From contig NZ_NQKZ01000011.1 in the NCBI RefSeq assembly GCF_002252665.1, positions 1 to 64,000 on the forward strand: DNA of 64,000 nucleotides. The letters run 5' to 3'. Within the stretch, counting starts at the first letter, position 1. Every line of letters begins with the position of its first letter. Both the position numbers and the translations under genes were made by a program. The stretch comes from Synechococcus sp. 8F6. Lineage in GTDB: Bacteria > Cyanobacteriota > Cyanobacteriia > PCC-6307 > Cyanobiaceae. This document shows, piece by piece, positions 40,130 through 60,414 of this stretch. Below the pieces are notes generated by a model. The model was not told the origin of the DNA. It saw nothing but the letters and a program-made list of their open reading frames with translations, and made no database searches.

Positions 40130-40627
40130 ATGCTTGAGCTGCTGCCGCCGCTCAACGACCACAACCTTCCCTGGATGGACACCATCCATCCGATCGTGGT
40201 GCATTTTGTGATCGCCATGGGCTTGATCACGTTTGTGTTTGATCTGATCGGTGTGTTGACCCGCCGGCCAGCGCTGTTTGAGGTCAGCTTCTGGAACCTG
40301 CTATTTGCCACCGCAGCAATTTTTGTGGCGATTATGTTTGGCCAGATCGAGGCGGGACTGGCCAATCCCTACGGAGCCTCGCGCGATCTGCTCAACCTGC
40401 ACAGCACGATCGGCTGGTCGCTGGCTGGGGTGTTGTCGCTGATGTCGGGGTGGCGCTACGTGATCCGCAGCAAGGACCCCCAGCAGCTGCCGCTGGCCTT
40501 CCTCGGTGCTGGAGGCCTGCTGACGGCCCTGATCGTGGTGCAGGTCACCCTCGGCAATCAGCTGATCTGGGTGTATGGCCTGCACACGGTGCCGGTGGTG
40601 CAGGCGATGCGGGCGGGGCTGGTGTGA
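40130..40627 (+). CDS. DUF2231 membrane protein 1, oxidase-associated
   Basis: A 165-residue protein with four membrane helices and the DUF2231 start IHPIVVHFVIAMGLITFVFDLIG, then LNLHSTIGWSLAGVLSL. Histidines in the helices (H22 and H26 regions, and HSTIG) could bind heme or metal; this is inference. It is the first gene of a cluster with a second DUF2231 gene and the ctaCDE-type oxidase, a layout known for the cyanobacterial alternative oxidase. Its stop overlaps the next ATG by one base. Confidence 0.85.
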   Translation: MLELLPPLNDHNLPWMDTIHPIVVHFVIAMGLITFVFDLIGVLTRRPALFEVSFWNLLFATAAIFVAIMFGQIEAGLANPYGASRDLLNLHSTIGWSLAGVLSLMSGWRYVIRSKDPQQLPLAFLGAGGLLTALIVVQVTLGNQLIWVYGLHTVPVVQAMRAGLV

Positions 40628-41256
40628 TGGAAGGCGCACCAGAATTCATCCCAGCGGGCTCACCGATCGAGCAGTTGGCAGCCGATCTGGGGTCCAATGG
40701 GCTGCCCTATGGCTTGCCGATTCACCCCAACCTGGTGCATCTCACGATCGGCCTGTTCGTGATCGCCATCGCCTTTGACATCGCCGGTGCCCTCTATCCG
40801 GTGGAGAAGCGGGTGTTCCGCTTTCTGGCGCTACCCGTGACCCGCGGCGGCTTTCACGATGTGGGTTGGTACAACCTGCTGGCCTGCGCCATCGTCACCT
40901 TCTTCACCGTGGCGGCCGGCTTCTTCGAGATGCTGCTGGCGGTGCCCCTGCCAGGGGTCACCAGCACTATCGGACTGCAGAGCATGGAGACGATGCTGTG
41001 GCATGGCGTTGGTGGTGTGCTGATCCTGCTGGTGATCGTCTCGATGACGGTGTGGCGGGGCTATCAGCGCTTTGTCTGGCGCCGCGACATGGGACGCCAG
41101 GTGCAATGGCTTTACCTGCTTGTCGGGCTTGGGCTGTTCCTGGTGATCGGTTTGCACGGCACCCTTGGAGCCGAGTTGGCGGGTGAGTTTGGCGTGCATG
41201 TCACCGCCGACCAGCTGCTTGCCGCCGGTGCCGATCTCAAGGAGGCTCTGCCATGA
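40627..41256 (+). CDS. DUF2231 membrane protein 2, oxidase-associated
   Basis: A 209-residue paralogue of the previous protein with four helices and IHPNLVHLTIGLFVIAIAFDIAG matching the IHPIVVHF block of the first. A 35-residue hydrophilic N-terminus (MEGAPEFIPAGSPIEQLAADLG) is added. TMLWHGVGGVLILLVIVS provides a further His. The two proteins together may form a heterodimeric membrane module serving the oxidase. Joined to the first by TGATG and to subunit II by ATGA overlap, so translation is coupled. Confidence 0.85.
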   Translation: MEGAPEFIPAGSPIEQLAADLGSNGLPYGLPIHPNLVHLTIGLFVIAIAFDIAGALYPVEKRVFRFLALPVTRGGFHDVGWYNLLACAIVTFFTVAAGFFEMLLAVPLPGVTSTIGLQSMETMLWHGVGGVLILLVIVSMTVWRGYQRFVWRRDMGRQVQWLYLLVGLGLFLVIGLHGTLGAELAGEFGVHVTADQLLAAGADLKEALP

Positions 41257-42218
41257 CCAACACGTCAGGGCGCTCCAAACCTCCTGTTGGCTCCCGGCCA
41301 GCCATCAGCCGCCTGGGCCTGGTGGCCTTGATTGGCTGGATCGCCCTGCTGGTGGTGCTGAGCTGGTGGATGTCCCAGGTTGCCTACCGCTGGCTGCCCG
41401 TGCAGGCCTCCAGCGCCGCACCCCTGGTGGATGGGCTGTTCAGCTTTGAAACCGGCGTTGGCACCTTTGTGTTTGGAGGGGTGTTGTCGGTGATGGCGTG
41501 GGTGATCGTGATGCACCGCGCCGAGAAGTACGACGAGAGCGATGCCGAGCCCATCGAGGGCAACACCCGCCTGGAAGTGATCTGGACGGTCATTCCGCTT
41601 CTGTTGGTGATGGCGATCGCGGTGTATGCGATGCGGGTGAACACCAGCCTGGGGGTGTTGGGCCCGATGGAGCACATCCATCTGGCCAATCCGGTCGAAG
41701 ACCAGGGCGGCTACCCAGCCGACCGGCTGCCGGCTGAGCAGGTGGAGGTGATTGCCCGGCAGTGGTCGTGGGAGTTTCGCTATCCCGAGGCCAACGTCTC
41801 CTCCACCGAGCTCCACCTGCCGGTGGATCAGCCCGTCACGTTCCGACTGGTGTCCGACGATGTGCTTCATGGCTTCTACATCCCGGCTTTCCGCCTCAAG
41901 CAGGATGTGATCCCAGGCCGAGCCATTGATTTCAATCTCACCCCCAGCCGCGAAGGTCGCTATCGCCTGCGCGACTCCCAGTTCAGCGGCACCTGGTTTG
42001 CGGCCAACCAGGCCGATGTGGTGGTGGAGAGCCCCGAGGCTTACCAGGCATGGCTCAAGACGGCGGCCGCTCAGCCCCTGCAGCCCGGGCTCAGTGATGC
42101 GGTTGCGGAATTCGGAGCCCGGCAGCAGCTCAAGAACCCCGGCTGGGCCACCGTGCCGCCGGCTCCACCGCCCCAGGTCAACGTTCCCGGATCCAACACC
42201 CTGCCGCACGACGCCTGA
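41253..42218 (+). CDS. ctaCII: Alternative respiratory terminal oxidase, subunit II without CuA
   Basis: A 321-residue subunit II with two N-terminal helices (about 22-46 and 68-88, then 108-128) and a cupredoxin domain (QWSWEFRYP to WFAANQADV). In the aa3-type the CuA site is CxExCxxxHxxM; here the block is D241-S-Q-F-S245-G-T-W-F249, both Cys are gone, His and Met are gone, and the whole protein has no Cys. H206 in DVLHGFYIPAF remains. Loss of CuA means cytochrome c cannot be the donor; quinol is expected. This matches cyanobacterial ARTO subunit II. Start is the ATGA-overlapping ATG; subunit I follows in five bases. Confidence 0.9.
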   Translation: MTNTSGRSKPPVGSRPAISRLGLVALIGWIALLVVLSWWMSQVAYRWLPVQASSAAPLVDGLFSFETGVGTFVFGGVLSVMAWVIVMHRAEKYDESDAEPIEGNTRLEVIWTVIPLLLVMAIAVYAMRVNTSLGVLGPMEHIHLANPVEDQGGYPADRLPAEQVEVIARQWSWEFRYPEANVSSTELHLPVDQPVTFRLVSDDVLHGFYIPAFRLKQDVIPGRAIDFNLTPSREGRYRLRDSQFSGTWFAANQADVVVESPEAYQAWLKTAAAQPLQPGLSDAVAEFGARQQLKNPGWATVPPAPPPQVNVPGSNTLPHDA

Positions 42219-42223
42219 GCCCG

Positions 42224-43900
42224 ATGACCTCCACCACCTTCCCGCCCAGTCCCCCCGAAGATGCGTCCTGGAGCCGTTATTTCGGCTTCAACACCGATGC
42301 CAAGGTGATTGGCATCCAATACATTGTTGTTGCCTTTTTCTTCTTCTTGATCGGTGGCCTGCTGGCCATGATCATCCGCGGTGAGTTGATCACGCCTGCC
42401 GCCGATCTGGTTGATCGCACCGTATACAACGGCATCTACACGATGCACGGAACGATCATGTTGTTCCTGTTCATCTTTCCGGTGCTGAATGGGCTCAACA
42501 ATCTGTTGATCCCCACCATGATCGGTGCCCCCGATATGGCCTTCCCCCGCCTCAATGCGGTGGCGTTCTGGCTGGTTCCCATCTTCGGAACTCTGTTGAT
42601 CGCCAGCTTTTTCGTGCCGGGGGGGCCTGCCTATTCCGGTTGGTGGTCCTACCCACCGGTGAGCACCCAGAACCCTCTGGGGCATTTCGTCAATGGCCAG
42701 GGGCTCTGGCTCACTGCCGTGGCGCTTTCGGGGGTGTCGTCGATCATGGGTGCGGTGAACTTCGTCACCACGATTCTGCGGATGCGGGCCCCTGGTATGG
42801 GCTTCTTTCGCATGCCGGTGTTTTGCTGGACAGCCCTGGCAGCCCAAAGTTTGCAGTTGATCGGTCTGCCGGCGCTCACCGGTGGGGCGATCATGCTCTT
42901 GATGGACCTCAACTTTGGCACCAGTTTCTATCAGCCGGAGGGGGGCGGCGATCCCGTGCTCTATCAGCACTTCTTCTGGTTCTATTCGCACCCGGCCGTG
43001 TATGTGATCATCCTGCCGGTGTTCGGCATCTTCTCCGAGCTGTTCCCCGTTTATTCCCGCAAGCCGCTGTTTGGCTATGTCTATGTCTGCCTGGCCTCAT
43101 TCATTATTGTGGGACTGGGGCTGGTGGTGTGGGTGCACCACTTTTTCTCCAGCGGAGTAGCCCAGTGGATGCGCAATCTGTTCATGTTCACCACCATGTT
43201 GATTGCGGTGCCTACTGGCGTGAAGGTGTTCGCCTGGCTGGGCACCATCTGGCGCGGTAAATTGCGGCTCACCACGCCGATGCTGTTCTGCCTCGGCGGC
43301 CTGTTCAACTTCGTGTTTGCGGGCATCACCGGCATCATGTTGGCCACGGTGCCAGTGGATATTCATGTGTCGAACACCTATTTCGTGGTGGGCCACTTCC
43401 ACTACGTGATCTATGGGGCGGCGGTGATGGGCATCTTTGCTGCCATCTACCACTGGTTTCCCAAGTTCATCGGCCGCATGCCCTATGAGGGCCTTGGCAA
43501 ACTTCATTTTTTGCTCACCTTTGTTGGGGCCAACCTCAACTTCCTGCCGATGCATCCCCTGGGGCTAATGGGCATGCCCCGTCGGGTGTCGAGTTACGAC
43601 CCGGAATTTGCCTTCTGGAATGTGCTGGCCAGCCTGGGGGCTTTCCTGCTGGGGGTGTCGATCATTCCCTTCCTACTCAACATGGTGAGCGCCTGGGTGC
43701 GGGGACCGAAGGCCACCCACAACCCCTGGAATGCCATTGGCCTGGAGTGGTTGCTGCCCTCTCCTCCGCCGGAGGACAACTTTGGTGAGCACGTGCCCAC
43801 CGTGATTAGTCGTCCCTATGGCTATGGCACTGGTGAGCCCCTGGTTGACCATCAGGCCGAAATCGAACGGGAGCTCACCCTTCAGGAGGCCAGCACATGA
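42224..43900 (+). CDS. ctaDII: Alternative respiratory terminal oxidase, subunit I
   Basis: A 558-residue heme-copper oxidase subunit I with about 12 helices. Low-spin heme ligands: H75 (MHGTIM) and H393; CuB ligands H256, H305 and H306; high-spin heme ligand H391 (GHFHYV); Y260 for the His-Tyr cross-link. Block Y254-S-H-P-A-V-Y260 has Ala where A1 oxidases have the proton-path Glu; YSHPxVY marks the A2 subgroup. It reduces O2 to water. Subunit III overlaps by ATGA. Confidence 0.95.
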   Translation: MTSTTFPPSPPEDASWSRYFGFNTDAKVIGIQYIVVAFFFFLIGGLLAMIIRGELITPAADLVDRTVYNGIYTMHGTIMLFLFIFPVLNGLNNLLIPTMIGAPDMAFPRLNAVAFWLVPIFGTLLIASFFVPGGPAYSGWWSYPPVSTQNPLGHFVNGQGLWLTAVALSGVSSIMGAVNFVTTILRMRAPGMGFFRMPVFCWTALAAQSLQLIGLPALTGGAIMLLMDLNFGTSFYQPEGGGDPVLYQHFFWFYSHPAVYVIILPVFGIFSELFPVYSRKPLFGYVYVCLASFIIVGLGLVVWVHHFFSSGVAQWMRNLFMFTTMLIAVPTGVKVFAWLGTIWRGKLRLTTPMLFCLGGLFNFVFAGITGIMLATVPVDIHVSNTYFVVGHFHYVIYGAAVMGIFAAIYHWFPKFIGRMPYEGLGKLHFLLTFVGANLNFLPMHPLGLMGMPRRVSSYDPEFAFWNVLASLGAFLLGVSIIPFLLNMVSAWVRGPKATHNPWNAIGLEWLLPSPPPEDNFGEHVPTVISRPYGYGTGEPLVDHQAEIERELTLQEAST

Positions 43901-44490
43901 CCGCCACCGTTGATTCAAATAGACCCGATTCCAACACCGCCCATCCCAAGCACAACCTCACGGGCTTCATCATCTTTCTGTGCTCTGAAAGCGTCGTTTT
44001 TCTGACGTTCTTCAGTGGGTTCGCCATTCTGAAAACCAGTGCTCTCAATTGGTTGCCTGCGGGCGTGGCGGGTCTGGAGTGGCGTATGCCGCTGATCAAC
44101 ACCGTGGTGCTGGTGTCCAGTTCCGGCACCATCTGGCTGGCAGAGCGCTGCATGGCCAAGGGCAACCTGCTGGGGTTCCGGGCGTTCTGGCTGGTCACCA
44201 TGGCCCTGGGGGCCTATTTCCTTTACGGCCAAGCCGTTGAGTGGAGTGGTCTGCAGTTTGGCTTTACTTCAGGCACGTTCGGGGGCACCTTCTATTTGCT
44301 CACAGGCTTTCACGGCCTGCATGTGGCCACTGGCGTGTTCCTGATGGGCCTGATGCTGGTGAAGTCGTTCATTCCCCAGAATTATGCGGGGGGAGAGCAA
44401 GGGGTGCAGGCCACATCCCTGTTTTGGCACTTCGTGGATGTGATCTGGATCATCCTCTTCGTGTTGATTTACGTCTGGCAGCGCACTTGA
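43897..44490 (+). CDS. ctaEII: Alternative respiratory terminal oxidase, subunit III
   Basis: A 197-residue subunit III with five helices, shorter than the seven-helix mitochondrial type and typical of bacterial CoxC/CyoC short forms. Family blocks are LCSESVVFLTFFSGFAIL, GGTFYLLTGFHGLHVATGVFLMGLMLVKSF and FWHFVDVIWIILFVLIYVW. It stabilises subunit I and the oxygen path. Its start overlaps subunit I by four bases; the GMC oxidoreductase gene begins 27 bp later on the same strand, with no visible terminator. Confidence 0.95.
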   Translation: MTATVDSNRPDSNTAHPKHNLTGFIIFLCSESVVFLTFFSGFAILKTSALNWLPAGVAGLEWRMPLINTVVLVSSSGTIWLAERCMAKGNLLGFRAFWLVTMALGAYFLYGQAVEWSGLQFGFTSGTFGGTFYLLTGFHGLHVATGVFLMGLMLVKSFIPQNYAGGEQGVQATSLFWHFVDVIWIILFVLIYVWQRT

Positions 44491-44517: not shown

Positions 44518-46035
44518 ATGATCATCGACGACCGCCATTACGACGTCATCATCATCGGCAGCGGTGCAGCCGGCGCCACCATGGCGAGGTCCTTGGCCAA
44601 TGCTGGTCACGCGGTGCTGTTGCTGGAGCGTGGCCAGCAGATGTCCTTGGCCGACCAAAACGTGGCCGATGTCGACCTCTTCCGCAAGGACCGCTATCAC
44701 CCCAAGGAGCAGTGGTTTGGTACCGACGGGGACCCGTTCTCTCCCCAGACCATCTACGCGCTCGGTGGCAACACCAAGATCTGGGGGGGCGTGCTGGAGC
44801 GGTTGCGTGAGCAGGAATTGGCCGGCCTCGCGCTGCAGGAGGGCCAGGCGCCAGCCTGGGGGCTCAGCTATAGCGACCTCGAGCCCTGGTACGACCAGGC
44901 GGAAAGCCTGTATCGCGTGCATGGACAGCGGGGTGTTGATCCCACAGAGCCCCGCTCCAGCGGCAATTACGCCCTCGCCCCCAAACCCGTTGAGCCCTTC
45001 TTCGAAGAGCTGCGTTTGGCGTTTGACCGCCAGGGCGTGAATCCCTATCCCCTGCCTCAGAGCTGGTCGGAATCGCTGGCTGATCCCTCCGGTGATGCGG
45101 AGCTGTTCGGGGTGGATCCCGCCCGCGCTTCTGCCGCGGTGGTGGTACGAACCGGCGCCCAGGTGCAGCGGTTGCATGTCAATCCCACCGGCACGGAGGT
45201 GCGGGGTGTGGAGGCCCTGGTGAATGGCCAGAGCTGGTTGTTCATGGGCCATCAGGTGGTTCTGGCGGCCGGGGCCATCAACAGCGCCGCGATCCTGTTG
45301 CGCTCGGCCACCGATCGCCATCCCCGGGGCCTGGCCAACGGCTCCGACCAGGTGGGCCGCAACTTGATGAAGCTGCAGCTCACCTCCATCCTGCAGCTCG
45401 CCACCGAGCCCAATAGCGGTCGCTATGGGCGCAGTTACGGCATCAACGACTATCTCTGGGGCGACAAGAACGTTTCCTTCCCGCTGGGTTCGATTCAGAA
45501 CGGCGGCGGCGTTCTGCAGGATGCCCTGTTTGCTGAGTCGCCGCCCGTGCTCTCGCTGGTGACCAAGCTGCTGCCCAACTTCGGCCTCGAGCAGCTCGCT
45601 TCCCGCTCGATCAGCTGGTGGGCGATGAGCCCGGTGCTGCCCGATCCCCACAACCGCGTCAGCCTGCGTGGGGATCGCATTCAGATCACCTATCAGGCCA
45701 ACAACCGCGAGGCCCATGACCGCCTCGTCTACCGCTGGATCGACACCCTCAAGGCGGTGGAGGCCGATCCTGATTGCCATGTGGTGAAAGAAGCCCCCAC
45801 CCATCCCCGCGGCGAGGCGCCCCTATCGGCCATGGGCTACAGCTGCGGCAGCTGCCGCATGGGCGACAACCCGGCCACCTCGGTGGTGGATCTGCAGGGC
45901 CGCAGCTACGAGGTGTCCAACCTCACCATCGCCGATGCCAGTGTCTTCCCGGCCTGTCCGGCCATGGGCTTCGGTCTCACCGTGATCGCCAATGCCCTGC
46001 GCATCGCCGATGGCCTCAAGGCATCCCTGCGATGA
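44518..46035 (+). CDS. GMC-like flavoprotein with altered catalytic residues
   Basis: A 505-residue flavoprotein with FAD motif IIGSGAAGATMARSL, YALGGNTKIWGG, HPRGLANGSDQVGRN and a GMC C-terminus. Compared with the paralogue at 48783, the usual catalytic His is Tyr441 (GYSCGSC against GHQAGTC) and the VNPS Asn position reads MGFG (483-486). A CxxC (C443, C446) and C480 are new. It lacks the Cys cluster of the paralogue. Thus it may dehydrogenate by another mechanism, act in electron transfer, or be non-catalytic. No signal peptide. Its stop overlaps the glycosidase ATG (ATGA). Confidence 0.82.
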   Translation: MIIDDRHYDVIIIGSGAAGATMARSLANAGHAVLLLERGQQMSLADQNVADVDLFRKDRYHPKEQWFGTDGDPFSPQTIYALGGNTKIWGGVLERLREQELAGLALQEGQAPAWGLSYSDLEPWYDQAESLYRVHGQRGVDPTEPRSSGNYALAPKPVEPFFEELRLAFDRQGVNPYPLPQSWSESLADPSGDAELFGVDPARASAAVVVRTGAQVQRLHVNPTGTEVRGVEALVNGQSWLFMGHQVVLAAGAINSAAILLRSATDRHPRGLANGSDQVGRNLMKLQLTSILQLATEPNSGRYGRSYGINDYLWGDKNVSFPLGSIQNGGGVLQDALFAESPPVLSLVTKLLPNFGLEQLASRSISWWAMSPVLPDPHNRVSLRGDRIQITYQANNREAHDRLVYRWIDTLKAVEADPDCHVVKEAPTHPRGEAPLSAMGYSCGSCRMGDNPATSVVDLQGRSYEVSNLTIADASVFPACPAMGFGLTVIANALRIADGLKASLR

Positions 46036-48722
46036 CGTCAACCCCCCCGGTGACCACCATTCCCGAGGCCGCCCGCATCCTGGAGCGCGACCAGGGCCTC
46101 CAGCCCTGGACCCTTTGGGGCAGTTACCTGCCCGATCGCCAGTGGGGCACCGTGCGGGAGGACTACTCCGCCGATGGCGATGCCTGGCGCTCCTTCCCCC
46201 ACGATCAGGCCCGCTCGCGGGTCTATCGCTGGGGAGAAGACGGACTGCTGGGCATCTGCGATGAGCAGTGTCGGCTGTGTTTCTCCCTGGCCCTCTGGAA
46301 TGGGGTCGATCCGATCCTCAAGGAGCGACCCTTTGGCCTGAGCAACCCCGAGGGCAACCATGGCGAAGATATCAAGGATTACTACTACCACCTCGCCAAC
46401 ACTCCCACCCATAGCTTCATGCGGGGGCTGTACAAGTATCCCCAGGCTGAATTCCCTTACCAGCAGCTGGTGGATGAAAACGGCCGCCGCAGCCGCAGCG
46501 AGCCGGAATACGAGCTGGTGGATACGGGCATCTTTGATGCCAGCCGCTACTTCGACGTCGTCATTGAATACGCCAAGGCCTCAGCCACCGACCTGCTGAT
46601 CCGCATTCGCGTCACCAACCGCGGGCCTGATCCTGCCCCCCTCACCCTGTTGCCCACCCTGTGGTTGCGCAACACCTGGGGCTGGGGCTACCCCGACGAG
46701 CAGCGCCAGCCGATGGGCCTGGACGGTGACGCACTGGTTACCGGTGACGTTCCAAATTTGGGGGCCTACGAGCTGCTCTGCCGGGATGGGGGCACCTGGT
46801 TGTTCACCGACAACGAGACCAACCACCAGCGCCTCTACGGCCAGCCCAATACCACCCCTTTTAAAAAGGATGGGTTTCACCGTTATGTGATCGGCGGTGA
46901 GGTAGAGGCGATCAATCCAGCCCAGTGCGGCACCAAGGCGGCCCGCTTGTTGCAGCGCACCCTCGCTCCGGCAGAGGAGTGGGTTGTCGAACTGCGCCTG
47001 CGGAAACGGTTGGATGGGCGCGTGCCCAATGCCGATGCTGAACCACCTTTCGGGCCCGCTTTTGATGCGCTGTTCCAGGTGCGGGAGGCGGAGTGTGTGC
47101 AGTTCTTTGAGCACACCTTGCCGGGGCTAGACCCCGAGGATCGCTTGATTCACAGCTCCGCCCTGGCGGGGTTGCTGTGGTGCAAGAAGTACTACGGCTG
47201 GAGCGTGCTGCGCTGGCTCGAGGGGGATCCCACCCAGCCCACGCCACCGGCCAACCGCTGGCACACCGATACGGCTCTGTGGAGTCGACTTCACGCCCAC
47301 CATGTGATCTCGATGCCGGATGCCTGGGAGTACCCCTACTTCTGCCAGTGGGATCTGATGTTCCACGCCGTCGCCTTCGCCATCTTCGATCCAGAGATGG
47401 CGAAGCAGCAGGCGATGTTGCTGCGCAGCCCCCACTACACAGCCCCCAGCGCCCAAACCCCCGCCTATGAGTGGGCTCTCTCCGATCCCAATCCGCCGAT
47501 CGGCGCCTGGGCGGCGATGCGGATTTACCAGATCGATCGCAAGCAGAGCGGCCAGGCCGATCAGCCCTTCCTGCGGGCCGCCCTGCGCAAGCTGTTGCTC
47601 GAATACGGCTGGTGGGCCAACCGCAACGATCGCTCCGGCGACAACGTGTTTGAGGGGGGCTTTCTGGGTCTCGACAACATCGCCGTGTTTGATCGGCGTT
47701 TTCCACTGGCCGATGGCAGCCGCATTGAGCAGTGTGATGGCACGGCCTGGATGGCGTCCCTCAGTCTCAATTTGCTCAACATCTCGGTGGAGCTGAGCCG
47801 TGAGGAGCCTGAGTATGCCGACACCTGCGAGCGCTTCGTTTACGACTTCACGCAACTGGCCATCACCCTCAACACGCGTTCAGAAAGAGGCTTCCTGAAC
47901 TGGGATGAGGACGATGGCTTCTACTACGACGTGATCAAGAGGCCGGACGGCAGCACCGACTACCTGCGGACCCGTACCCTTTCGGGTCTGGTTCCCCTGC
48001 TGGCGGTGGCAAGTTTCGACCGTGAAACCGTCGGTCGCCTACCGGTGCTCGATGTGCTCAAAAGCATGGCCTGGTTTGTGCATGAGCACACCACGCCCAC
48101 CTGGTTGGAACACAACCTCGGCCAGTGGCATAACGACCGCATCCTCTACACCCTGGTGCCGGAGGATCGCCTGCGACGCATCTGTGAGCGTCTGTTTGAC
48201 GAAGAGGAGTTCCTCTCCCCCTACGGGATCCGCTCCCTGTCCAAGGTGTACGGCGACCATCCCTATTCGTTCACGGAGGGCTCCGATAGCCAGATCCTGG
48301 CCTACAGCCCGGGGGACAGTCCTGTGGCGATGTTTGGGGGCAATTCCAATTGGCGTGGGCCGGTGTGGATGCCGATCAACTTCCTGCTGATTGAGTCGTT
48401 GCAGAAATACGCCCATTACTACGGGGACAACTTCAAGGTGGAGTTCCCTACGCGCTCCGGCAACTGGCTCAATCTTTGGGAGGTGTCGCTTGAGCTCGAG
48501 AAGCGCTTGGTGGGCCTCTTCAGGCGGGATGGATCCGGGCGGCGGGCCTTCAATGGTGATGTGGAGTTGTTCCAGACGGATCCCCACTGGATGGATCTGA
48601 TCCAGTTCAACGAATACTTTCACGGAGACAATGGCCGTGGTGTGGGTGCTTCCCACCAGACCGGATGGAGCGCCACCGTCGCCAAGATGGTTAACCAGTT
48701 GAGTCGTTATTCATCTGGTTAA
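46032..48722 (+). CDS. GH63/MGH1-like glycoside hydrolase
   Basis: An 896-residue protein with an N-terminal beta-rich domain (about 1-380; includes DYYYHLANTPTHSFMRGLYKYPQ) and an (alpha/alpha)6 barrel (about 400-880). Barrel blocks DAWEYPYFCQWDLMFHAVAFA, GDNVFEGGFLGLDNI, WLEHNLGQWHN and NSNWRGPVWMPINFLLIESL are typical of GH63/MGH1-like inverting enzymes, with candidate acids in CQWD and in the loop before WRGP. Substrate may be a glucoside, compatible solute or glucan. No signal peptide, so probably cytoplasmic. It is translationally coupled to the first GMC gene; the second GMC gene is 60 bp downstream. Confidence 0.8.
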   Translation: MTSTPPVTTIPEAARILERDQGLQPWTLWGSYLPDRQWGTVREDYSADGDAWRSFPHDQARSRVYRWGEDGLLGICDEQCRLCFSLALWNGVDPILKERPFGLSNPEGNHGEDIKDYYYHLANTPTHSFMRGLYKYPQAEFPYQQLVDENGRRSRSEPEYELVDTGIFDASRYFDVVIEYAKASATDLLIRIRVTNRGPDPAPLTLLPTLWLRNTWGWGYPDEQRQPMGLDGDALVTGDVPNLGAYELLCRDGGTWLFTDNETNHQRLYGQPNTTPFKKDGFHRYVIGGEVEAINPAQCGTKAARLLQRTLAPAEEWVVELRLRKRLDGRVPNADAEPPFGPAFDALFQVREAECVQFFEHTLPGLDPEDRLIHSSALAGLLWCKKYYGWSVLRWLEGDPTQPTPPANRWHTDTALWSRLHAHHVISMPDAWEYPYFCQWDLMFHAVAFAIFDPEMAKQQAMLLRSPHYTAPSAQTPAYEWALSDPNPPIGAWAAMRIYQIDRKQSGQADQPFLRAALRKLLLEYGWWANRNDRSGDNVFEGGFLGLDNIAVFDRRFPLADGSRIEQCDGTAWMASLSLNLLNISVELSREEPEYADTCERFVYDFTQLAITLNTRSERGFLNWDEDDGFYYDVIKRPDGSTDYLRTRTLSGLVPLLAVASFDRETVGRLPVLDVLKSMAWFVHEHTTPTWLEHNLGQWHNDRILYTLVPEDRLRRICERLFDEEEFLSPYGIRSLSKVYGDHPYSFTEGSDSQILAYSPGDSPVAMFGGNSNWRGPVWMPINFLLIESLQKYAHYYGDNFKVEFPTRSGNWLNLWEVSLELEKRLVGLFRRDGSGRRAFNGDVELFQTDPHWMDLIQFNEYFHGDNGRGVGASHQTGWSATVAKMVNQLSRYSSG

Positions 48723-48782: not shown

Positions 48783-50423
48783 ATGACCCACGCCTCCCAT
48801 CACAGCGAGCTTCCCGGTCCTTCCCTGGCCATCTCTCCGTTGCCGGCAGCTGGTCAGTTGGAGGTGGCCGATGGGGCCCACTTTGATGTGGTGATCATTG
48901 GCAGTGGTGCCGGTGGTGGCACCCTGGCGCGCCATCTGGCTCCCAGCGGGCTGAAGATTCTGGTGCTGGAGCGGGGCGATTGGCTGCCCCAGGAGCCCCA
49001 GAACTGGGATGCGGAGGAGGTGTTCCAGAAGGGGCGCTACGTGTCCAAGGATGTGTGGCACGACAAGCACGGCAAGCCGTTTCAGCCCGGCAGCCATTAC
49101 TTCGTGGGTGGAGCCACGAAGATATATGGCGCGGCTCACTTCCGGCTGCGCCAGCAGGATTTTGAGCAGCTCAATCATTTCGACGGCATTTCGCCAGCCT
49201 GGCCCCTGCGTTACAGCGACTTTGAGCCCTATTACCAGCGGGCCGAGGAGATGTACCACGTGCACGGCCAGCGGGGGGAAGATCCAACCGAGCCCCCCTG
49301 CAGTGGTCCGTACCCCCATCCGCCGGTGGCCCATGAGCCCCGCATCCAGCAGTTGGTGGATGATCTGCGATTGGCCGGATTGCATCCGTTCCATGCCCCC
49401 AGTGGGGTGATGCTGGATGAGGCCAACATGCCCTTCAGCCGCTGCCGCAAGTGCAATTGCTGCGATGGCTTCCCCTGTTTGGTGCACGCCAAATCCGATG
49501 CGGAGGTGCTGGGGATGCGGCCGGCCCTGGCAGCGCCGAACGTGTCGCTGCTGACCCGGGCCCATGTGCGCCGTCTGCAGACCGACCCCTCCGGCCGCAG
49601 CGTGCAGGCGGTCGAGCTGGAGCGCGATGGCCAACCGATGACCGTGCGTGGGGATGTGGTGGTGGTGAGCTGTGGGGCTGCCAACAGCGCCCGGCTGCTG
49701 TTGATGTCAGCCAACGACAAGCATCCCCGCGGGCTGGCCAACAGCTCCGACCAGGTGGGGCGCCATTACATGTTCCACAACAGCAAGGCCATGGTGGCCC
49801 TGGCCCATGAGCCGAACACCACCGTGTTTCAGAAAACCATCTCGATCAATGATTGGTATCTCGGTGATGCCGACTTTGACTACCCGATGGGCAACATCCA
49901 GATGACGGGGAAGACCAACGGCACGATCATGAAGGGCTATGCGCCGCTGGAAACCTTTCTGATGCCGGGTTGGTCGATGGACAAAATCGCCGAACATGCT
50001 CTCGATTTCTGGATCTCCTCCGAAGACCTCCCCGATCCCAACAACCGCGTGACCGTGGATGGCGAGGGTCAGATTCATCTGGCCTACACGCCCAACAACC
50101 AGACGGCGGCCCAGCGACTCTACGGCCGGCTTACGGGGATGCTCGACCGGCTCTATCTCAAAAATCACCTGGTGGAGCGGCAGTTTTATATCAAGAACGA
50201 CATGTCGATCGCGGCGGTGGGCCATCAGGCTGGCACCTGCCGCTTCGGCAGTGATCCGGCCACCTCAGTGCTCGATCTCAACTGCAAGGCCCACGACCTC
50301 GACAACCTCTACGTGGTTGATACCAGCTTCATGCCGACCATCGGCGCGGTGAACCCTTCGCTCACTGCCATCGCCAATGCCCTGCGGGTGGGCGATCATC
50401 TGCGCGAGCGGCTCAGCCGCTGA
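48783..50423 (+). CDS. GMC-family oxidoreductase with Cys cluster
   Basis: A 546-residue flavoprotein. FAD motif VVIIGSGAGGGTLARH (about 36-51), FVGGATKIYGAAHFRL, HPRGLANSSDQVGRH, catalytic His481 (VGHQAGTC) and Asn524 (AVNPS) as in active GMC dehydrogenases. An extra cluster C221-R-K-C224-N-C226-C227-D-G-F-P-C232 could hold an iron-sulfur centre or zinc, as in some long-chain alcohol dehydrogenases of this family. A Pro/Ser/His-rich N-terminus of about 30 residues precedes the FAD domain. Likely oxidises a sugar or alcohol and passes electrons on; quinone is a candidate acceptor given the oxidase upstream. Confidence 0.86.
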   Translation: MTHASHHSELPGPSLAISPLPAAGQLEVADGAHFDVVIIGSGAGGGTLARHLAPSGLKILVLERGDWLPQEPQNWDAEEVFQKGRYVSKDVWHDKHGKPFQPGSHYFVGGATKIYGAAHFRLRQQDFEQLNHFDGISPAWPLRYSDFEPYYQRAEEMYHVHGQRGEDPTEPPCSGPYPHPPVAHEPRIQQLVDDLRLAGLHPFHAPSGVMLDEANMPFSRCRKCNCCDGFPCLVHAKSDAEVLGMRPALAAPNVSLLTRAHVRRLQTDPSGRSVQAVELERDGQPMTVRGDVVVVSCGAANSARLLLMSANDKHPRGLANSSDQVGRHYMFHNSKAMVALAHEPNTTVFQKTISINDWYLGDADFDYPMGNIQMTGKTNGTIMKGYAPLETFLMPGWSMDKIAEHALDFWISSEDLPDPNNRVTVDGEGQIHLAYTPNNQTAAQRLYGRLTGMLDRLYLKNHLVERQFYIKNDMSIAAVGHQAGTCRFGSDPATSVLDLNCKAHDLDNLYVVDTSFMPTIGAVNPSLTAIANALRVGDHLRERLSR

Positions 50424-51004: not shown

Positions 51005-53074
51005 GTGCCGGCAGCACCCATGGTGATTTCCGCGCCCCCTGCCCGATGCACGCCTGCCCCTGGATCCAGCGCTCCGCTCGGGGCCACGCCGGGTGATGGC
51101 GGCGTCAACTTCAGCCTCTATGCCAAGGACGCGACCCTGGTGGAGCTGTGTTTGTTTGATCGCCCGGACGATGATGAGCCGGCTGTGGTGGTGCAGCTTG
51201 AAGGAGAGCAGCACCGCACCTCCCACTACTGGCATGCCTGGCTGCCGGGGCTGCAACCGGGCCAGGTGTACGGCTACCGCGTGCATGGCCCCCAGGATCC
51301 ATCGCGGGGTTTGCGCTTTGATCCCTCCCTGCTGCTGATCGATCCCTACGGATTAGCTCTGGCGATGCCGAGCGACTCCGCCGGTGCCATGAAAAGTGTG
51401 GTGGTCGATCCCGATGGCTACGACTGGGAGGGGGACCAGCCCCTGCGCCGTCCGGCCCGGGAAACGGTGATCTACGAGTTGCATGTGCGGGGCTTCACGG
51501 CTGATCCCAGCTCGGGAGTGGCCGCGCCGAAGGCCGGTACCTATGCCGGTCTGATCGACAAGATTCCCTATCTGCAGGAGCTGGGCATCACGGCGGTGGA
51601 GCTGTTGCCGGTGTTCCAGTTCGATGTCCACGACGCGCCAGCGGGGCTGCCCAACTACTGGGGTTACCAGCCGATCTCCTTCTTTGTGCCCCATCACGGC
51701 TACAGCACCCGCTGCGATCCCCTGGGCCCCCTCGACGAGTTTCGGGATCTGGTGAAGGCGTTGCACCGCGCCGGCATCGAGGTGATTCTCGATGTGGTGT
51801 TCAACCACACGGCTGAGGGTAATGAAACCGGCCGCACCTTCAGCTATCGGGGGATTGCCAATGCCGATTACTACCTGCTGGATCAAGATCCCAGCCGTTA
51901 TGCCGACTACACCGGCTGCGGCAACACCCTCAACGCCAACAATCCGGTGGTGCGGAGGCTGATCCGCCACAGCCTGCGCTATTGGGTGGAACACATGCAT
52001 GTGGATGGATTCCGTTTCGATCTGGCTTCGGTGCTCGCCCGCGACGAAACCGGTCAGCCCTCACCGTTGCCGCCGATTCTCTGGGATATCGACACCGATC
52101 CGGTGTTAGCCGGCATCAAGTTGATCGCCGAGGCCTGGGATGCGGCCGGGCTCTATCAGGTGGGTCGCTTCGTTGGCGACAACTGGCAGGAGTGGAATGG
52201 ACGCTTCCGGGATGATGTGCGCCGGTTCCTCAAGGGCGATGGGGGAATGGTGCCCCAGGTCAGCCAGCGGTTGATCGGCAGTCCCGACATCTACGGCTAT
52301 GAGCATCGCCGGGCGGAGACCAGCGTCAACTTCATCACCTGCCACGACGGCTTCACCCTGGCGGATCTGGTGAGTTTCAACGCCAAACACAACGAAGCCA
52401 ACGGCGAGGCCAATCGTGATGGTAGTAGCGATAACGCCAGCTGGAACTGTGGCGTTGAAGGGCTGACGCAGGATCCGGATGTGCTGGCCCTGCGCCAGCG
52501 GCAGATGCGCAACTTCTTCACCCTGTTGTTGCTGGCGGATGGCACCCCGATGCTGGGCATGGGGGATGAGGTGTGCCGCAGCCAGCAGGGCAACAACAAC
52601 GCCTACTGCCAGGACGCCCCGATCAGTTGGTTCGACTGGAGCCTGGTGGAGCGCCATGGAGATCTGCGGCGCTTCGTGCAGCAGTTGATCGCCTTCCGGA
52701 GCCGTCGTGATGTTGTGCTCGAGGGGCAGGAGCTGTTGCTCGAGGATCTGCTCCTGCGCAACCAGGTGACCTGGCATGGGGTGGTGCCGGGTCAGCCCGA
52801 CTGGAGCGATGCTTCCCGTTCCTTTGCGGTCACCATCACCAGCAGTTGCCATCGCTACCGCCGGCATCTGATGGCCAATGCCTGGTGGGAACCGCTGGAC
52901 TTTGGGCTGCCCCCCGCCGATGCTGGTTCCCAGCCTTGGCGCCACTGGATCGACACGGCCCAGCCGAGCCCTGGCGATGTTGTGGGCTGGGGCGACGGCC
53001 CGCCCGTGGTTGGGGATCACTGCGAGGTAGCCCCCCGCTCGATTCGGGTGCTGGTGGTGGAGTTACCGGCCTAA
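51005..53074 (+). CDS. glgX: Glycogen debranching enzyme (isoamylase type)
   Basis: A 689-residue GH13 enzyme with CBM48-like N-terminus (GATPGDGGVNFSLYAKDATLVELCLFD) and GH13 catalytic blocks: VILDVVFNHTAEG (region I), DGFRFDLASVLARD (Asp nucleophile), LIAEAWDAAG (Glu acid) and FITCHDGFTLADLV (His-Asp). It cleaves alpha-1,6 branches of phosphorylase-limit glycogen to feed breakdown of storage glucan in the dark. Start GTG at 51005 or ATG at 51020. It is oriented with the GMC genes, with DoxX between on the other strand. Its stop overlaps the convergent VOC stop. Confidence 0.93.
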   Translation: MPAAPMVISAPPARCTPAPGSSAPLGATPGDGGVNFSLYAKDATLVELCLFDRPDDDEPAVVVQLEGEQHRTSHYWHAWLPGLQPGQVYGYRVHGPQDPSRGLRFDPSLLLIDPYGLALAMPSDSAGAMKSVVVDPDGYDWEGDQPLRRPARETVIYELHVRGFTADPSSGVAAPKAGTYAGLIDKIPYLQELGITAVELLPVFQFDVHDAPAGLPNYWGYQPISFFVPHHGYSTRCDPLGPLDEFRDLVKALHRAGIEVILDVVFNHTAEGNETGRTFSYRGIANADYYLLDQDPSRYADYTGCGNTLNANNPVVRRLIRHSLRYWVEHMHVDGFRFDLASVLARDETGQPSPLPPILWDIDTDPVLAGIKLIAEAWDAAGLYQVGRFVGDNWQEWNGRFRDDVRRFLKGDGGMVPQVSQRLIGSPDIYGYEHRRAETSVNFITCHDGFTLADLVSFNAKHNEANGEANRDGSSDNASWNCGVEGLTQDPDVLALRQRQMRNFFTLLLLADGTPMLGMGDEVCRSQQGNNNAYCQDAPISWFDWSLVERHGDLRRFVQQLIAFRSRRDVVLEGQELLLEDLLLRNQVTWHGVVPGQPDWSDASRSFAVTITSSCHRYRRHLMANAWWEPLDFGLPPADAGSQPWRHWIDTAQPSPGDVVGWGDGPPVVGDHCEVAPRSIRVLVVELPA

Positions 53075-54054
53075 CCCTGGATCACTTGCAGCTGGTGGCC
53101 ATCGGGGTCGGCCAGCTGCAGGGCGCGCTCGCTGCCTACCAAGGCGGCCTGGTCGCCCAGCGCAATCACGCCGCCATGGAGCACCTGGCCTCCGAAGGCC
53201 TCCGCGGCTGTGGCGATGCGATCCAGATCGGCAACCCGCAGGCGGATCTGCCAGTGGGCCAGGTCCTGGGCCCCCTGATCCGCGGGCCTGGGTCTGCCGC
53301 TGTTGGGGGGCTGGTAATTGAGGCATTCCACGCCGGCGCCCGTGGGGCAGCGGTGGCCTGTGATGCGCACCCGGGTGTCCTGAAGGCCATCGAGCCCATC
53401 CTGGGTGGGGCCGCTGTTCACTCCATCGCCGCCCAGCTTCAGGCCCAGCAGCGTGTCGTAGAAGCGGCAGCTGCGCGGGGTGTCGGCCACAGAGAGAGCG
53501 CTGTGGTCGATCCCCAGGAAGGGGGCGCTGGCTGGCGGGGGGGCATGCCAGCGGGCCTCGCCCTTATCGGGGGGAAACTGCAGCAGCTCCAGGTTGTGCC
53601 CCTCCGGATCGCGAAACTTGAAGGCCTGGATGCCGGCGGCGGCGGTGTTCCACGCCGGCAGGGTCTGGGGGGCGGTGGACACCTCCACCAGGGAGCCGTT
53701 GGCAATCGCCTGGCGCGCCTTGGCGCTGGCGGCGTCCAGATCGCTCACCACGATGCAGATGTGTTGAAACCAGAGGTCGCAGCTGCGGGAATCGGCCGGA
53801 ATCGGGCGCCCAGGCCGCAGGCCGTCGCCCAGGCTCAGCACCTCGGTGAGCTCGAGGGTGGCGTCGCCCAGGTGCAGTTGCACCAGCTTCAACCGCGAGC
53901 CGGGCAGGCCCACCAGCTGGGCATAGGGGCCTGCTTCCACCAGCAGGCTTTCGCTACGCCTGAAGCCCAGGTTGGTTTCGAAGAAATCGGCAGCCCTTTC
54001 AGCGTTGGCTGTGGTGAAGCCGATGCTGCTGATTTGGGGAGTCTGGAGAGCCAT
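53071..54054 (-). CDS. VOC-family protein with two glyoxalase-like modules
   Basis: A 327-residue protein with two VOC (vicinal oxygen chelate) repeats: about residues 6-165 (HICIVVSDLDAAS, FRDPEGHNLELLQF) and about 182-325 (GIDHSALSVADTPRSCRFYDTLLGLK, LADPDGHQLQVIQ). Metal ligands normally come from His and Glu in each module; H184/E-type positions are present in part. Such tandem proteins include dioxygenases and glyoxalases; reaction unknown. ATG at 54054. It is the last gene before the GlcG-like gene on the same strand (20-bp gap). Confidence 0.8.
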   Translation of the reverse strand: MALQTPQISSIGFTTANAERAADFFETNLGFRRSESLLVEAGPYAQLVGLPGSRLKLVQLHLGDATLELTEVLSLGDGLRPGRPIPADSRSCDLWFQHICIVVSDLDAASAKARQAIANGSLVEVSTAPQTLPAWNTAAAGIQAFKFRDPEGHNLELLQFPPDKGEARWHAPPPASAPFLGIDHSALSVADTPRSCRFYDTLLGLKLGGDGVNSGPTQDGLDGLQDTRVRITGHRCPTGAGVECLNYQPPNSGRPRPADQGAQDLAHWQIRLRVADLDRIATAAEAFGGQVLHGGVIALGDQAALVGSERALQLADPDGHQLQVIQG

Positions 54055-54765: not shown

Positions 54766-55683
54766 TCAGGGCGCCTGGGCGCCACGGGTATTGGTGAACA
54801 GGGCGTAGATCGCCTTGGAGGCGCACAGGAACAGGCGGCTGTGGTGCCGATCGCCGAAGCAGAGGTTGGAGACCCGGTGGGGTACCAACACCTTGCCCAG
54901 CAGGGTGCCATCTGGGGCGATGCAGTGCACCCCGTCGGCGGCACCGCACCAGAGGTTGCCGTGTTCGTCGACGCGGAAACCGTCGGCCCAGCCAGGGGTG
55001 ACCTTGTGGAAGATCTCCCCACCAGAGAGGCTGCGGCCGTCTGCAGCTACATCAAAAACCCGGATGTACTGCCGCGGTTCGGCGACGCCAGCGGCGCCCG
55101 ATTCAGCCACGTACAACTTGCGCTCATCCGGCGAGAAGGCGAGGCCATTGGGGCCATCGAAGTCGCTGGCCATCACGGTGACTGCACCGGTGCTGGGATC
55201 GAGGCGGTAGAGGGCGGGTGGTTGCTCCGACGGTTGGCGACCGCCTTCGTAGTCGTTGAGCAGCCCATAGAGGGGATCGCTGAACCAGATCGAACCGTCG
55301 CGCTTCACGACGACATCGTTGGGGGCGTTGAGGCGCTTGCCATGGGCCTGGTTGGCCAGCATGGTGACCGTGCCATCGGTCTCCAGGCGCGTGAGGCAGC
55401 GGCTGGCGTGGTGGCAGGTGATCAGGCGGCCCTGGCGATCACGGATCTGACCGTTGCCGTAATCGGAGGGTTCCCGAAACACGCTCACCCCGTGCTCGGG
55501 GCTCCAGCGCATGGTGCGGTTGTTGGGGATGTCACTGAACAGGAGACAGTTGTGGTCGCCGAACCACACCGGGCCCTCCACCCAGCGAAAGCCGTCGGCC
55601 AGCAACTCCAGATCGGCGTTGAACAGCACCAGCGCGTCGAAGCGCCGATCGAAGCTCACCGTGCATTCAGAGGGTTGGCTCAC
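54766..55683 (-). CDS. SMP-30/gluconolactonase-family protein
   Basis: A 305-residue six-bladed propeller enzyme. Metal-site blocks are visible: FRWVEGPVWFGD (Glu), NAPNDVVVKRDGSIWFSDP (Asn), DGPNGLAFSPDE (Asn/Asp) and WADGFRVDEHGNLW (Asp). The family hydrolyses sugar lactones such as gluconolactone with Ca2+ or Zn2+. GTG at 55683 overlaps the cupin stop (GTGA), which decides the start. The substrate may be the product of a sugar dehydrogenase nearby, either a GMC protein or the SDR at 56682; that is inference. Confidence 0.86.
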   Translation of the reverse strand: MSQPSECTVSFDRRFDALVLFNADLELLADGFRWVEGPVWFGDHNCLLFSDIPNNRTMRWSPEHGVSVFREPSDYGNGQIRDRQGRLITCHHASRCLTRLETDGTVTMLANQAHGKRLNAPNDVVVKRDGSIWFSDPLYGLLNDYEGGRQPSEQPPALYRLDPSTGAVTVMASDFDGPNGLAFSPDERKLYVAESGAAGVAEPRQYIRVFDVAADGRSLSGGEIFHKVTPGWADGFRVDEHGNLWCGAADGVHCIAPDGTLLGKVLVPHRVSNLCFGDRHHSRLFLCASKAIYALFTNTRGAQAP

Positions 55684-56135
55684 GCGAAATAGCCGGGCCG
55701 CACCCCGGTCCATAGGTTGTCGTTGCGCTGAATGATCAGCTGCAGACAGGGTTCATCGCCCACCTGGGCCGAGAGATGACCCTTGGCTCCCGAAGCGATG
55801 GCGATGCATTGCTGGTCGCCGCCGAAGGAGAACTCCCCGGGGCCGAACACCTGCTTCTGGCCATCCATGCTTTCCACCGACCAGCTGCCGCGCAACACGT
55901 AGATCCACTTGGGGATGTGGTTTTCGTGCCAGTCGGCAGTCCAGCCCACCGGCAGCAGGGTGAGAAAGGCATTGCCTTCCTTGATCAGGTCCAGGCTCCA
56001 CTGGGGGGAGTCATTCGGACCCAGCACCCCCAGGGTGTACGGAGCCATGGTGCAGAGGGTCTGCCGGCTGATGCCGTTGTCGTCGGTCCAGAGGTGCCAG
56101 TAGGGCAGCGAGGCTGGCTGGTTGGGATCCGGCAT
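55680..56135 (-). CDS. Cupin-domain protein
   Basis: A 151-residue protein with cupin core WTADWHENHIPKWIYVLRGSWSVESMDGQKQVFGPGEFSFGGDQQC. Ligand-type residues are H71-like in WHENHIPKW and others at the second motif, though the usual second His is replaced around GGDQQC. Cupins include isomerases and dioxygenases; enzymatic role unclear. It starts 12 bp after the RidA gene and its stop overlaps the SMP-30 start. Confidence 0.8.
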   Translation of the reverse strand: MPDPNQPASLPYWHLWTDDNGISRQTLCTMAPYTLGVLGPNDSPQWSLDLIKEGNAFLTLLPVGWTADWHENHIPKWIYVLRGSWSVESMDGQKQVFGPGEFSFGGDQQCIAIASGAKGHLSAQVGDEPCLQLIIQRNDNLWTGVRPGYFA

Positions 56136-58234: not shown

Positions 58235-59031
58235 TGCGGCGCCGCCACCGCTTTTATCGCCATGTGTTTGTGGTGTCCCTGCTGGTGATGGCCTCCATGC
58301 CGTTGCCCTATCCGTTCCGCCGTCTGGCGCTGTCCGGTACGGCCGTGCTGATCGGGCTGTTGGCCGTTGAATTGGGCCAGCCCGTTCGCCCACACCAAAC
58401 CCGGCGCCACTGGAGCGACACCCTCTACCGCTGGAGCGGCCTGGCCGGGATTGTCTTTCAGCTCATCTGGATGGCCAGCCCCACCACCTTTGCGTTCGTT
58501 GGATTTCCGGTGTTGCTGGTGATCACGCTCTTCATCTTTTGGAGCCTCAAACGGCTGCTGATCTGCCTGGCCCAGGAAACCCGCATCGGCATGCCCGTGC
58601 TGTCGGGTGCGGTGGCGGGCTACCTGTTGCTCGTTATTAGTGGTGGGTTGCTGTTTGGCGTGATGGAAACGGTGGCGCCGGGCAGTTTTCTTAACGAGTC
58701 GCAAGGAGGGCGGGAGCTGGTGCTCAGTCAGCTGCCTCTGAATGCCGCGGGGCTGCAGGTGTGGAGCCTCGACTTCACCCGAATCCACTACTTCGCGTTC
58801 GTCAGCCTCACCACCGTTGGCTACGGCGACATCATTCCAGGCACCCCACCGGCCCAGATGGCGAGTGTGGCGCTCAGCATCTGTGGCCCGCTGTATCTGG
58901 CGATCGTGATGGGTCTGTTGATCAGCCGCTACACCCTGCAGAGTGAGGAGGAGCAGGCCCTGCTCACGGAGCGAGAGTCTGCTCCTCCAGCCCCACCTCC
59001 ACGTTCAGGTGCTGATTCGGACGGCCCGTGA
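58234..59031 (+). CDS. Two-helix pore potassium channel family protein
   Basis: A 265-residue protein with about six hydrophobic helices and a P-loop with intact filter S191-L-T-T-V-G196-Y-G-D199 followed by the inner helix PLYLAIVMGLLISRYTLQ. This is the K+ channel signature TVGYGD. There is no C-terminal RCK domain; the tail is short, acidic and Pro-rich. ATG at 58234 is coupled to the preceding paralogue. The last 68 bases overlap the convergent NDH-2 gene. Confidence 0.86.
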   Translation: MRRRHRFYRHVFVVSLLVMASMPLPYPFRRLALSGTAVLIGLLAVELGQPVRPHQTRRHWSDTLYRWSGLAGIVFQLIWMASPTTFAFVGFPVLLVITLFIFWSLKRLLICLAQETRIGMPVLSGAVAGYLLLVISGGLLFGVMETVAPGSFLNESQGGRELVLSQLPLNAAGLQVWSLDFTRIHYFAFVSLTTVGYGDIIPGTPPAQMASVALSICGPLYLAIVMGLLISRYTLQSEEEQALLTERESAPPAPPPRSGADSDGP

Positions 59032-60337
59032 TCAGCATCGAGGCCCGTTGACGGGTGGCGATCGCCCACAACCATTTGGTGAGCAGGGTCAATCGATTTT
59101 CATTGGCGGGCATGAACATCAGGTGGGCCAGGCCCCAGAGAATCCAGCCCGGCAGGCCGCTCACCTTGAGGCCGCGGAGGTCGGCGACGGCATGGAGTGG
59201 ACCAAGCACCGCCATCGTGCCGAAATCGGTGAACGCAAACGCCTTGTGGGAGCGGCCCTGGATCTGGGCCACGATGTCGGCTGCCACCCAGCCACCCATC
59301 TGCACGGCGGGCCCGGCCATGCCGGGTAGAGGTTTGCCGTCAGCTGTGTGGCTGTAGGCGCAGAGGTCGCCGATCACCCGGATTTCCGGATGGCTCGGCA
59401 CCGAGAAGTCGGGCTCCACCACCACACGGCCGCCCCTGTCGACGGTGCAACCGCTGGCATCGGCCAGCACCTGGCCCAGATGGGAGGCCCGCACGCCGGC
59501 GGTCCAGCAGATGGTGGCGGCCTCCAGGTTGCGGGGGCCGTCGGCGGTGTTCACCACCACCTTGCCGGCCTCGATCGTTTGCACCCGCCCGCCCAGCAGC
59601 AGCTCCACCCCGGCCGACTGCAGGTAGCTGCCGGCGGCTGCCGACAGGCTGGGGTCCATGGCCCGCAGCACCCGGTCGCCCGGGTCCACCAGGGTGACCT
59701 TGCACAGGCGAGGATCCAGCTGCTTGAAGTCGCGGCCCAGGGCATGGGCCATCAGCTCCATCAGGGAGCCGGAGAGTTCGCAGCCCGAGGGCCCGCCCCC
59801 CACGACGACGGCCGATTGCAGAAAGGCCCGCCGGGCCGGATCGGGGGTTTGCTCGGCTTCTTCAAGGGCCAGCAGCACCCGGCGGCGGATCTCATCGGCG
59901 TGCTCGAGGATCTTCATCGGCGGCGCCGACTCGCGCCACTCGTCGTGGCCGAAGTAGCTGCTGCCGGAGCCCGCCGCCAGGATCAGGTGGTCGTAGGCCA
60001 GTTGGCGGTCGTTGAAGACAATCTGGTTCGCCTGGGTGTCGATTTCCTTGACCTCACCCAGCAGCACCTGCACATTCGGGGCCTGGCCCACCATTTGGCG
60101 CAGCGGCGAGGCCACGTCGCCCTCCGACACCAGCCCTGTGGCCACCTGGTAGAGCAGCGGCTGGAACAGGTTGAAGTTGCGCTTGTCAACCAGGGTGACC
60201 CGCACCGGTTGATTGATCAGGGCGTGGCAGGCCTTGAGCCCGGCGAAGCCGCCGCCCACGATCACCACATGGGGAAGGGTTTTCAGCCTCTGATCGGGGG
60301 GCTCGAGTTCCAGGAAGAAGCGTTCGCGGGCCATCAT
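58964..60337 (-). CDS. Type-2 NADH dehydrogenase-like flavoprotein
   Basis: A 457-residue protein with two Rossmann motifs: FAD VVIVGGGFAGLKACHAL and NAD(P) VVVGGGPSGCELSGSL, plus FQPLLYQVATGLVSEGDVASPLR and VIGDLCAYSHTADGKPLPGMAGPAVQMGGWVAADI. These are NDH-2 family marks. NDH-2 passes electrons from NADH to quinone without pumping protons; in cyanobacteria some copies are regulatory. A C-terminal amphipathic stretch (LPGWILWGLAHLMFMPANENRL) probably binds the membrane. ATG at 60337. It could supply quinol to the alternative oxidase. Confidence 0.9.
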   Translation of the reverse strand: MMARERFFLELEPPDQRLKTLPHVVIVGGGFAGLKACHALINQPVRVTLVDKRNFNLFQPLLYQVATGLVSEGDVASPLRQMVGQAPNVQVLLGEVKEIDTQANQIVFNDRQLAYDHLILAAGSGSSYFGHDEWRESAPPMKILEHADEIRRRVLLALEEAEQTPDPARRAFLQSAVVVGGGPSGCELSGSLMELMAHALGRDFKQLDPRLCKVTLVDPGDRVLRAMDPSLSAAAGSYLQSAGVELLLGGRVQTIEAGKVVVNTADGPRNLEAATICWTAGVRASHLGQVLADASGCTVDRGGRVVVEPDFSVPSHPEIRVIGDLCAYSHTADGKPLPGMAGPAVQMGGWVAADIVAQIQGRSHKAFAFTDFGTMAVLGPLHAVADLRGLKVSGLPGWILWGLAHLMFMPANENRLTLLTKWLWAIATRQRASMLITGRPNQHLNVEVGLEEQTLAP

Positions 60338-60414
60338 TCCCAAAACAGTGGCTTCAAGGTATCGATCCCGGGCCGGTTTGGCCTGCTAGAGGTGGGCTGA
60401 TTGTGGACACCGAC

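Follow-up and report, generated by a model that had tools for sequence, protein, structure and literature searches.

Paired DUF2231 membrane proteins encoded with the CuA-less oxidase ARTO of cyanobacteria as candidate electron-entry partners

The stretch of DNA analysed here (64 kb of Synechococcus sp. 8F6, hereafter referred to as the window) harbors a plus-strand gene cluster in which two DUF2231 genes precede the genes for three heme-copper oxidase subunits:

40130..40627, plus strand: duf1, DUF2231 protein 1, 165 amino acids, four transmembrane helices (PF09990, E = 3e-35, 121.6 bits)
40627..41256, plus strand: duf2, DUF2231 protein 2, 209 amino acids, four transmembrane helices (PF09990, E = 4e-37, 127.9 bits)
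41253..42218, plus strand: CoxB2/CtaC2, CuA-less subunit II, 321 amino acids (COX2_TM and COX2 matches)
42224..43900, plus strand: CoxA2/CtaD2, heme-copper oxidase subunit I of the ARTO clade (COX1, E = 3e-151)
43897..44490, plus strand: CoxC2/CtaE2, subunit III, 197 amino acids (COX3, E = 1e-31)
44518..46035, plus strand: GMC-family FAD oxidoreductase (GMC_oxred_C/N)
46032..48722, plus strand: MGH1-like/GH63-type glycoside hydrolase (PF22422 and PF03200)
48783..50423, plus strand: second GMC-family oxidoreductase (GMC_oxred_C/N)

Both DUF2231 proteins score above the curated cut-off of PF09990 (26.4 bits), and Pfam matches and reading frames place the oxidase genes where the first-pass annotation had put them. 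The stop-to-start overlap that it had described for all five genes applies to three of the four junctions (duf1/duf2, TGATG; duf2/coxB and coxA/coxC, ATGA each), but not to coxB/coxA, where a gap of five bases lies between the coxB stop at 42218 and the coxA start at 42224. The first GMC gene starts 27 bases past coxC and is probably the sixth gene of the cluster. Its end is overlapped by the GH63-like glycosidase gene, and the second GMC gene possibly marks the end of the transcription unit. Near the cluster, the minus-strand genes at 54766-55713, 53071-54054 and 58964-60343 are, by sequence resemblance, SMP-30/gluconolactonase-like, VOC and NDH-2-like. Genes resembling these recur near some other ARTO loci, which suggests a role in sugar oxidation.

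Judged by the relatives of the window CoxB, the genome (2.5 Mb) is close to Cyanobium/freshwater Synechococcus. It contains two genes for heme-copper oxidase subunit I, one in the window and one on contig C39, the latter belonging to a CuA-containing aa3 oxidase. When the two subunits II were aligned, the CuA region of the aa3 protein (IVCAELCGPYHGGM) corresponded to LRDSQFSGTWFAANQ in the window CoxB. The CuA ligands C, C, H and M are replaced by D241, S245, F249 and N252, and the whole protein has zero cysteine residues, exactly as read in the first-pass annotation; the first CuA histidine is kept (H206 in DVLHGF). The CuA centre in subunit II, the criterion for an aa3 cytochrome c oxidase, is absent from the window CoxB. 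All complete or readable ARTO-type CoxB proteins examined have D-x3-S in place of the cysteine pair, together with an SG[TAV] signature, and a CoxB profile run against 244 cyanobacterial genomes gave 308–567 bits for ARTO-like CoxB versus at most 234 bits for CuA-containing CoxB. The Mg site of subunit I is a second site, next to CuA, that was lost in ARTO: its His-Asp pair is changed to Asn-Asn or Ser-Asn in 19 of 20 ARTO CoxA proteins (Ser-Asn in the window), whereas it is intact in cyanobacterial aa3 CoxA. The aa3 oxidase on contig C39, about 52% (subunit I), 33% (subunit II) and 38% (subunit III) identical to the window enzyme, accordingly differs from it in retaining both the CuA motif and the Mg-site His-Asp.

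In a maximum-likelihood tree of subunit I, which contains no named Synechocystis CoxA, 20 ARTO CoxA proteins including that of the window form one clade (97/95 support), and 15 cyanobacterial aa3 CoxA proteins fall outside it. The proposed quinol-type alternative oxidase is therefore borne out as far as the ARTO type is concerned, by the loss of CuA and by the clade; the grouping with CuA-containing aa3 oxidases that would have spoken against it was not seen. The window CoxA also carries the predicted YSHPAVY (A2-type YSHPXV replacing the Glu of GHPEV), but this motif had to be discarded as evidence for ARTO or a quinol oxidase, since it is found likewise in the CuA-containing aa3 CoxA of the same genome and in all cyanobacterial CoxA proteins checked. 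By its sequence, the window enzyme is a type 1 cyanobacterial ARTO, which is an A-type heme-copper oxidase that descends from the aa3 lineage of cyanobacteria.

In the literature, ARTO is classed as a bo3/Qox-type quinol oxidase on account of CuA loss, and it is stated to be unclear whether it has further subunits (PMC6616624). According to such a reading, plastoquinol would be oxidized in subunit I, and the DUF2231 proteins would be structural accessories or serve localisation. The CoxB alignment agrees with it with respect to CuA, and E. coli bo3 (CyoABCD) resembles ARTO in being an A-type, CuA-less enzyme with conserved heme and CuB ligands in subunit I. However, quinol binding in E. coli bo3 involves a polar cluster of Arg71, Asp75, His98 and position 101 (PMC10256718; printed there as Glu101, Gln101 in the K-12 sequence), and in the alignment with ARTO subunit I none of these four residues is kept. 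The corresponding positions are I, L, V and G in the window CoxA and I/V/F/L, L/F, V/L and G/A/S in the ARTO CoxA set. Therefore, if ARTO oxidizes plastoquinol, it does so elsewhere than at that site; another quinol site may be present within subunit I, which would be compatible with the loss of the bo3 site. Further differences to bo3 are the missing Mg-site His and a cyo operon without DUF2231. A bo3 origin of ARTO was rejected, as ARTO CoxA groups with cyanobacterial aa3 and the branch leading to E. coli CyoB is very long, although the placement of CyoB is unsure. Taken with the histidines described below, this makes a bo3-like quinol oxidase with merely accessory DUF2231 proteins improbable.

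The operon type of the window is already known, since the ARTO operon of Anabaena (alr2729-alr2730-coxB3-coxA3-coxC3) was described with the same arrangement; for its first two genes, the annotation goes no further than putative membrane proteins (PMC6616624, PMC7065334). In Anabaena sp. PCC 7120, this Cox3/Qox (ARTO type 1) has two membrane protein genes before coxBAC, as in the window, and by gene order duf1 and duf2 occupy the orthologous positions of alr2729 and alr2730. Nostocales relatives of the window cluster, a comparison set without the alr2729 and alr2730 sequences themselves, carry DUF2231 at both positions. Unlike the Anabaena operon from alr2729 to coxC3, the window cluster runs on into the GMC, GH63 and GMC genes. 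The ARTO of Synechocystis sp. PCC 6803 (ctaCII, ctaDII, ctaEII) has a CuA-less subunit II, as has the window enzyme.

The association of DUF2231 with ARTO extends over all relatives investigated. In a search with CoxB, a query that does not select for DUF2231, the DUF2231 pair was located directly upstream of coxB in 80 of 80 CoxB relatives, which is far beyond chance. ARTO CoxB was detected in 57 of 244 cyanobacterial genomes and DUF2231 in each of these 57, while DUF2231 of any kind occurs in 79 of the 244, 22 of them without ARTO. The co-occurrence has a naive hypergeometric P of 8e-38, which ignores relatedness, and the underlying counts are inflated because the genomes are phylogenetically related. 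Genomes with aa3 only are mostly devoid of DUF2231, and the only two DUF2231 genes in the genome of the window are those in the ARTO operon. Both partners are retained even where they are dispersed: in three genomes of a Synechocystis-like genus (named by resemblance), coxB for a CuA-less subunit II and the DUF2231 pair are found at separate loci instead of in one operon, and the genome of one ARTO cluster without the pair in cis has pairs elsewhere. The presence of DUF2231 in 57 of 57 ARTO genomes supports the view in the first-pass annotation that these proteins look like partners dedicated to the oxidase.

The pair is not restricted to A-type oxidases. Two cyanobacteria without detected ARTO possess an operon of the order ccoN-ccoO-duf1-duf2-NDH2-like (L122:1008-6135 and, on the minus strand, L121:3578-8657). 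The DUF2231 pair in this C-type (cbb3-like) cluster is orthologous to that of ARTO and has the same order, whereas the oxidase is of a different class, with a c-type cytochrome subunit in place of CoxB. Because the pair also occurs in these operons, it is tied to CuA-less oxidases rather than to one oxidase type.

Within ARTO loci, four histidines of duf1 (H20, H25, H91 and H152) and four of duf2 (H33, H38, H126 and H191) are invariant, and H177 of duf2 is present in 77 of 79 sequences. From the loop charges, the N-terminus, loop 2 and the C-terminus are predicted to be outside, so that all four histidines of each protein would be at the P (periplasmic/lumenal) face, where CuA would be located. 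The same orientation is indicated by homologues in which a signal-like sequence at the N-terminus and a Met/His-rich segment come before TM1. H20 and H91 recur in all DUF2231 classes that were aligned; H25 and an acidic residue close to E74 are found in most of them. Such invariant polar histidine clusters would be unusual in a purely structural subunit, which argues against the accessory role in a bo3-like oxidase discussed above.

The AF2 model of duf1 is a bundle of four long helices (pLDDT 81), and that of duf2 is of low confidence (pLDDT 64). With the duf1 model, Foldseek found generic four-helix bundles at best (top E 0.46) and VIA gave Z scores up to 14 for helical bundles, which are not diagnostic; the matches (subunit III, designed bundles, cytochrome b561 and 4D2) are generic, and a similarity to heme or metal families outside this match list may exist. 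A sequence search for solved DUF2231 structures had no result at E ≤ 1. In hhalign comparisons, DUF2231 matched the heme-binding CtaA with sub-threshold probabilities of 9–42%, compared to mostly <2.5% and in one case 14% for reversed and unrelated controls. Two DUF2231 proteins from copper loci (see below) match COX15-CtaA at E 0.006, below the cut-off. Homology between DUF2231 and CtaA is suggestive, but at a sub-threshold level.

Dehydrogenase genes distinguish the neighbourhood of ARTO from that of aa3. A GMC FAD oxidoreductase, an enzyme that oxidises sugars or alcohols, is encoded within 10 kb of coxB in 16 of 20 diverse ARTO clusters versus none of 19 aa3 clusters, and NDH-2 in 7 of 20 versus none of 19. 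The GMC gene is situated just downstream of coxC in 82 of 95 ARTO loci. The GH63-type glycosidase was found in 47 of 95, a count limited by the available flanks, and is kept mainly in Cyanobium relatives. A surface metal reduction, with DUF2231 as the P-side reductase of Fe(III) or Cu(II) and the oxidase as an alternative electron sink, would be in line with the P-side histidine clusters, with the impaired iron reduction and uptake reported for a Synechocystis ctaD2/ctaE2 mutant and with the reported enrichment of ARTO in low-iron picocyanobacteria (both PMC10119275). Yet the ARTO clusters examined revealed no genes for iron transport or a reductase; their surroundings encode GMC, NDH-2 and sugar enzymes, and we regard this function as very improbable.

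The absence of the bo3 quinol residues, the linkage to GMC and NDH-2 genes and the ccoN-ccoO-duf1-duf2-NDH2-like operons together argue for a role of DUF2231 in electron entry. We infer that the pair serves CuA-less oxidases as a dedicated module for electron entry or for a cofactor; cofactor binding, electron transfer and a physical complex of the pair with ARTO are predictions of the same kind. The pair would substitute for CuA as the electron-entry module of ARTO, with each four-helix bundle binding a redox cofactor (heme b or a metal) by its four histidines and a glutamate at the P face. Its electrons would come from plastoquinol, or straight from a flavin dehydrogenase, and would move on to the low-spin heme in subunit I. 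The cluster itself would encode the dehydrogenases that supply them, here the GMC-family FAD oxidoreductase and elsewhere NDH-2. For the complete route from the dehydrogenase (GMC or NDH-2) via plastoquinone, the DUF2231 pair with its P-side cofactor and the low-spin heme to heme/CuB, we estimate a probability of about 45%. A wider and more doubtful proposal is that paired DUF2231 proteins represent an electron-entry module not recognised before, redox-active and equipped with a cofactor, which A-type (ARTO) and C-type (ccoNO) oxidases could use interchangeably, and that ARTO clusters with GMC or NDH-2 encode a compact dehydrogenase-to-oxygen chain.

Copper handling is a serious rival to electron entry because of DUF2231 genes found apart from oxidases. 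Outside cyanobacteria, where the sample consisted of plasmids only, DUF2231 was found on five alphaproteobacterial plasmids, in all cases in copper-resistance loci with genes for CueR, a CopA-type ATPase, multicopper oxidase, CopB, CopC/CopD and DUF411, and several of these proteins carry Met/His-rich N-terminal segments. On a plasmid of Gloeothece verrucosa (L154:4986-6097), an ARTO-type pair without adjacent oxidase lies next to a cupin gene and the gene for a four-helix copper-binding protein. The P-side histidines might thus bind copper and load or protect CuB, a site that A-type and C-type partner oxidases share, and the pair would be a copper-handling or assembly module that carries no electrons in turnover. 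On the other hand, the aa3 oxidase of the same genomes needs CuB too, yet DUF2231 tracks ARTO and not aa3, and the copper-type proteins differ at Q72/E74. The DUF2231 proteins of the window have no Met/His-rich segment at the N-terminus, and cop genes were not observed next to their genes. We consider a function confined to copper rather unlikely, though it has to be taken seriously.

Literature searches yielded no paper that connects DUF2231 with an oxidase and, among the hits listed, none that ties a GMC oxidoreductase to ARTO, and a full-text search returned essentially no functional literature on DUF2231. New here are the DUF2231 co-occurrence in 57 of 57 genomes, the P-face histidines, the loss of the bo3 residues, the GMC linkage, the pair in ccoN-ccoO operons and the relatives in copper loci. 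The co-occurrence, the residue loss and the GMC/NDH-2 linkage single out specific genes, open to deletion, as candidates for the electron path of ARTO, and the partner genes together with the dehydrogenase linkage make the question of its electron donor testable. A role in electron entry, if true, would be the first function for the DUF2231 family.

A third cyanobacterial class of DUF2231 has a GHPLHP motif and has lost H25. It accounts for many of the 22 genomes with DUF2231 but without ARTO, and several of its genes examined adjoin LmeA-like genes and have no relation to oxidases. Second ARTO copies in Dulcicalothrix/Calothrix (L082:7047-7505 and L084:7030-7437) consist of an intact duf1-duf2-coxB and a truncated coxA remnant. 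On plasmid pNe_5 of Nostoc edaphicum, the ARTO cluster adjoins BlaI/M56 regulator genes and genes for cytochrome c6 and a cytochrome bd-type protein.
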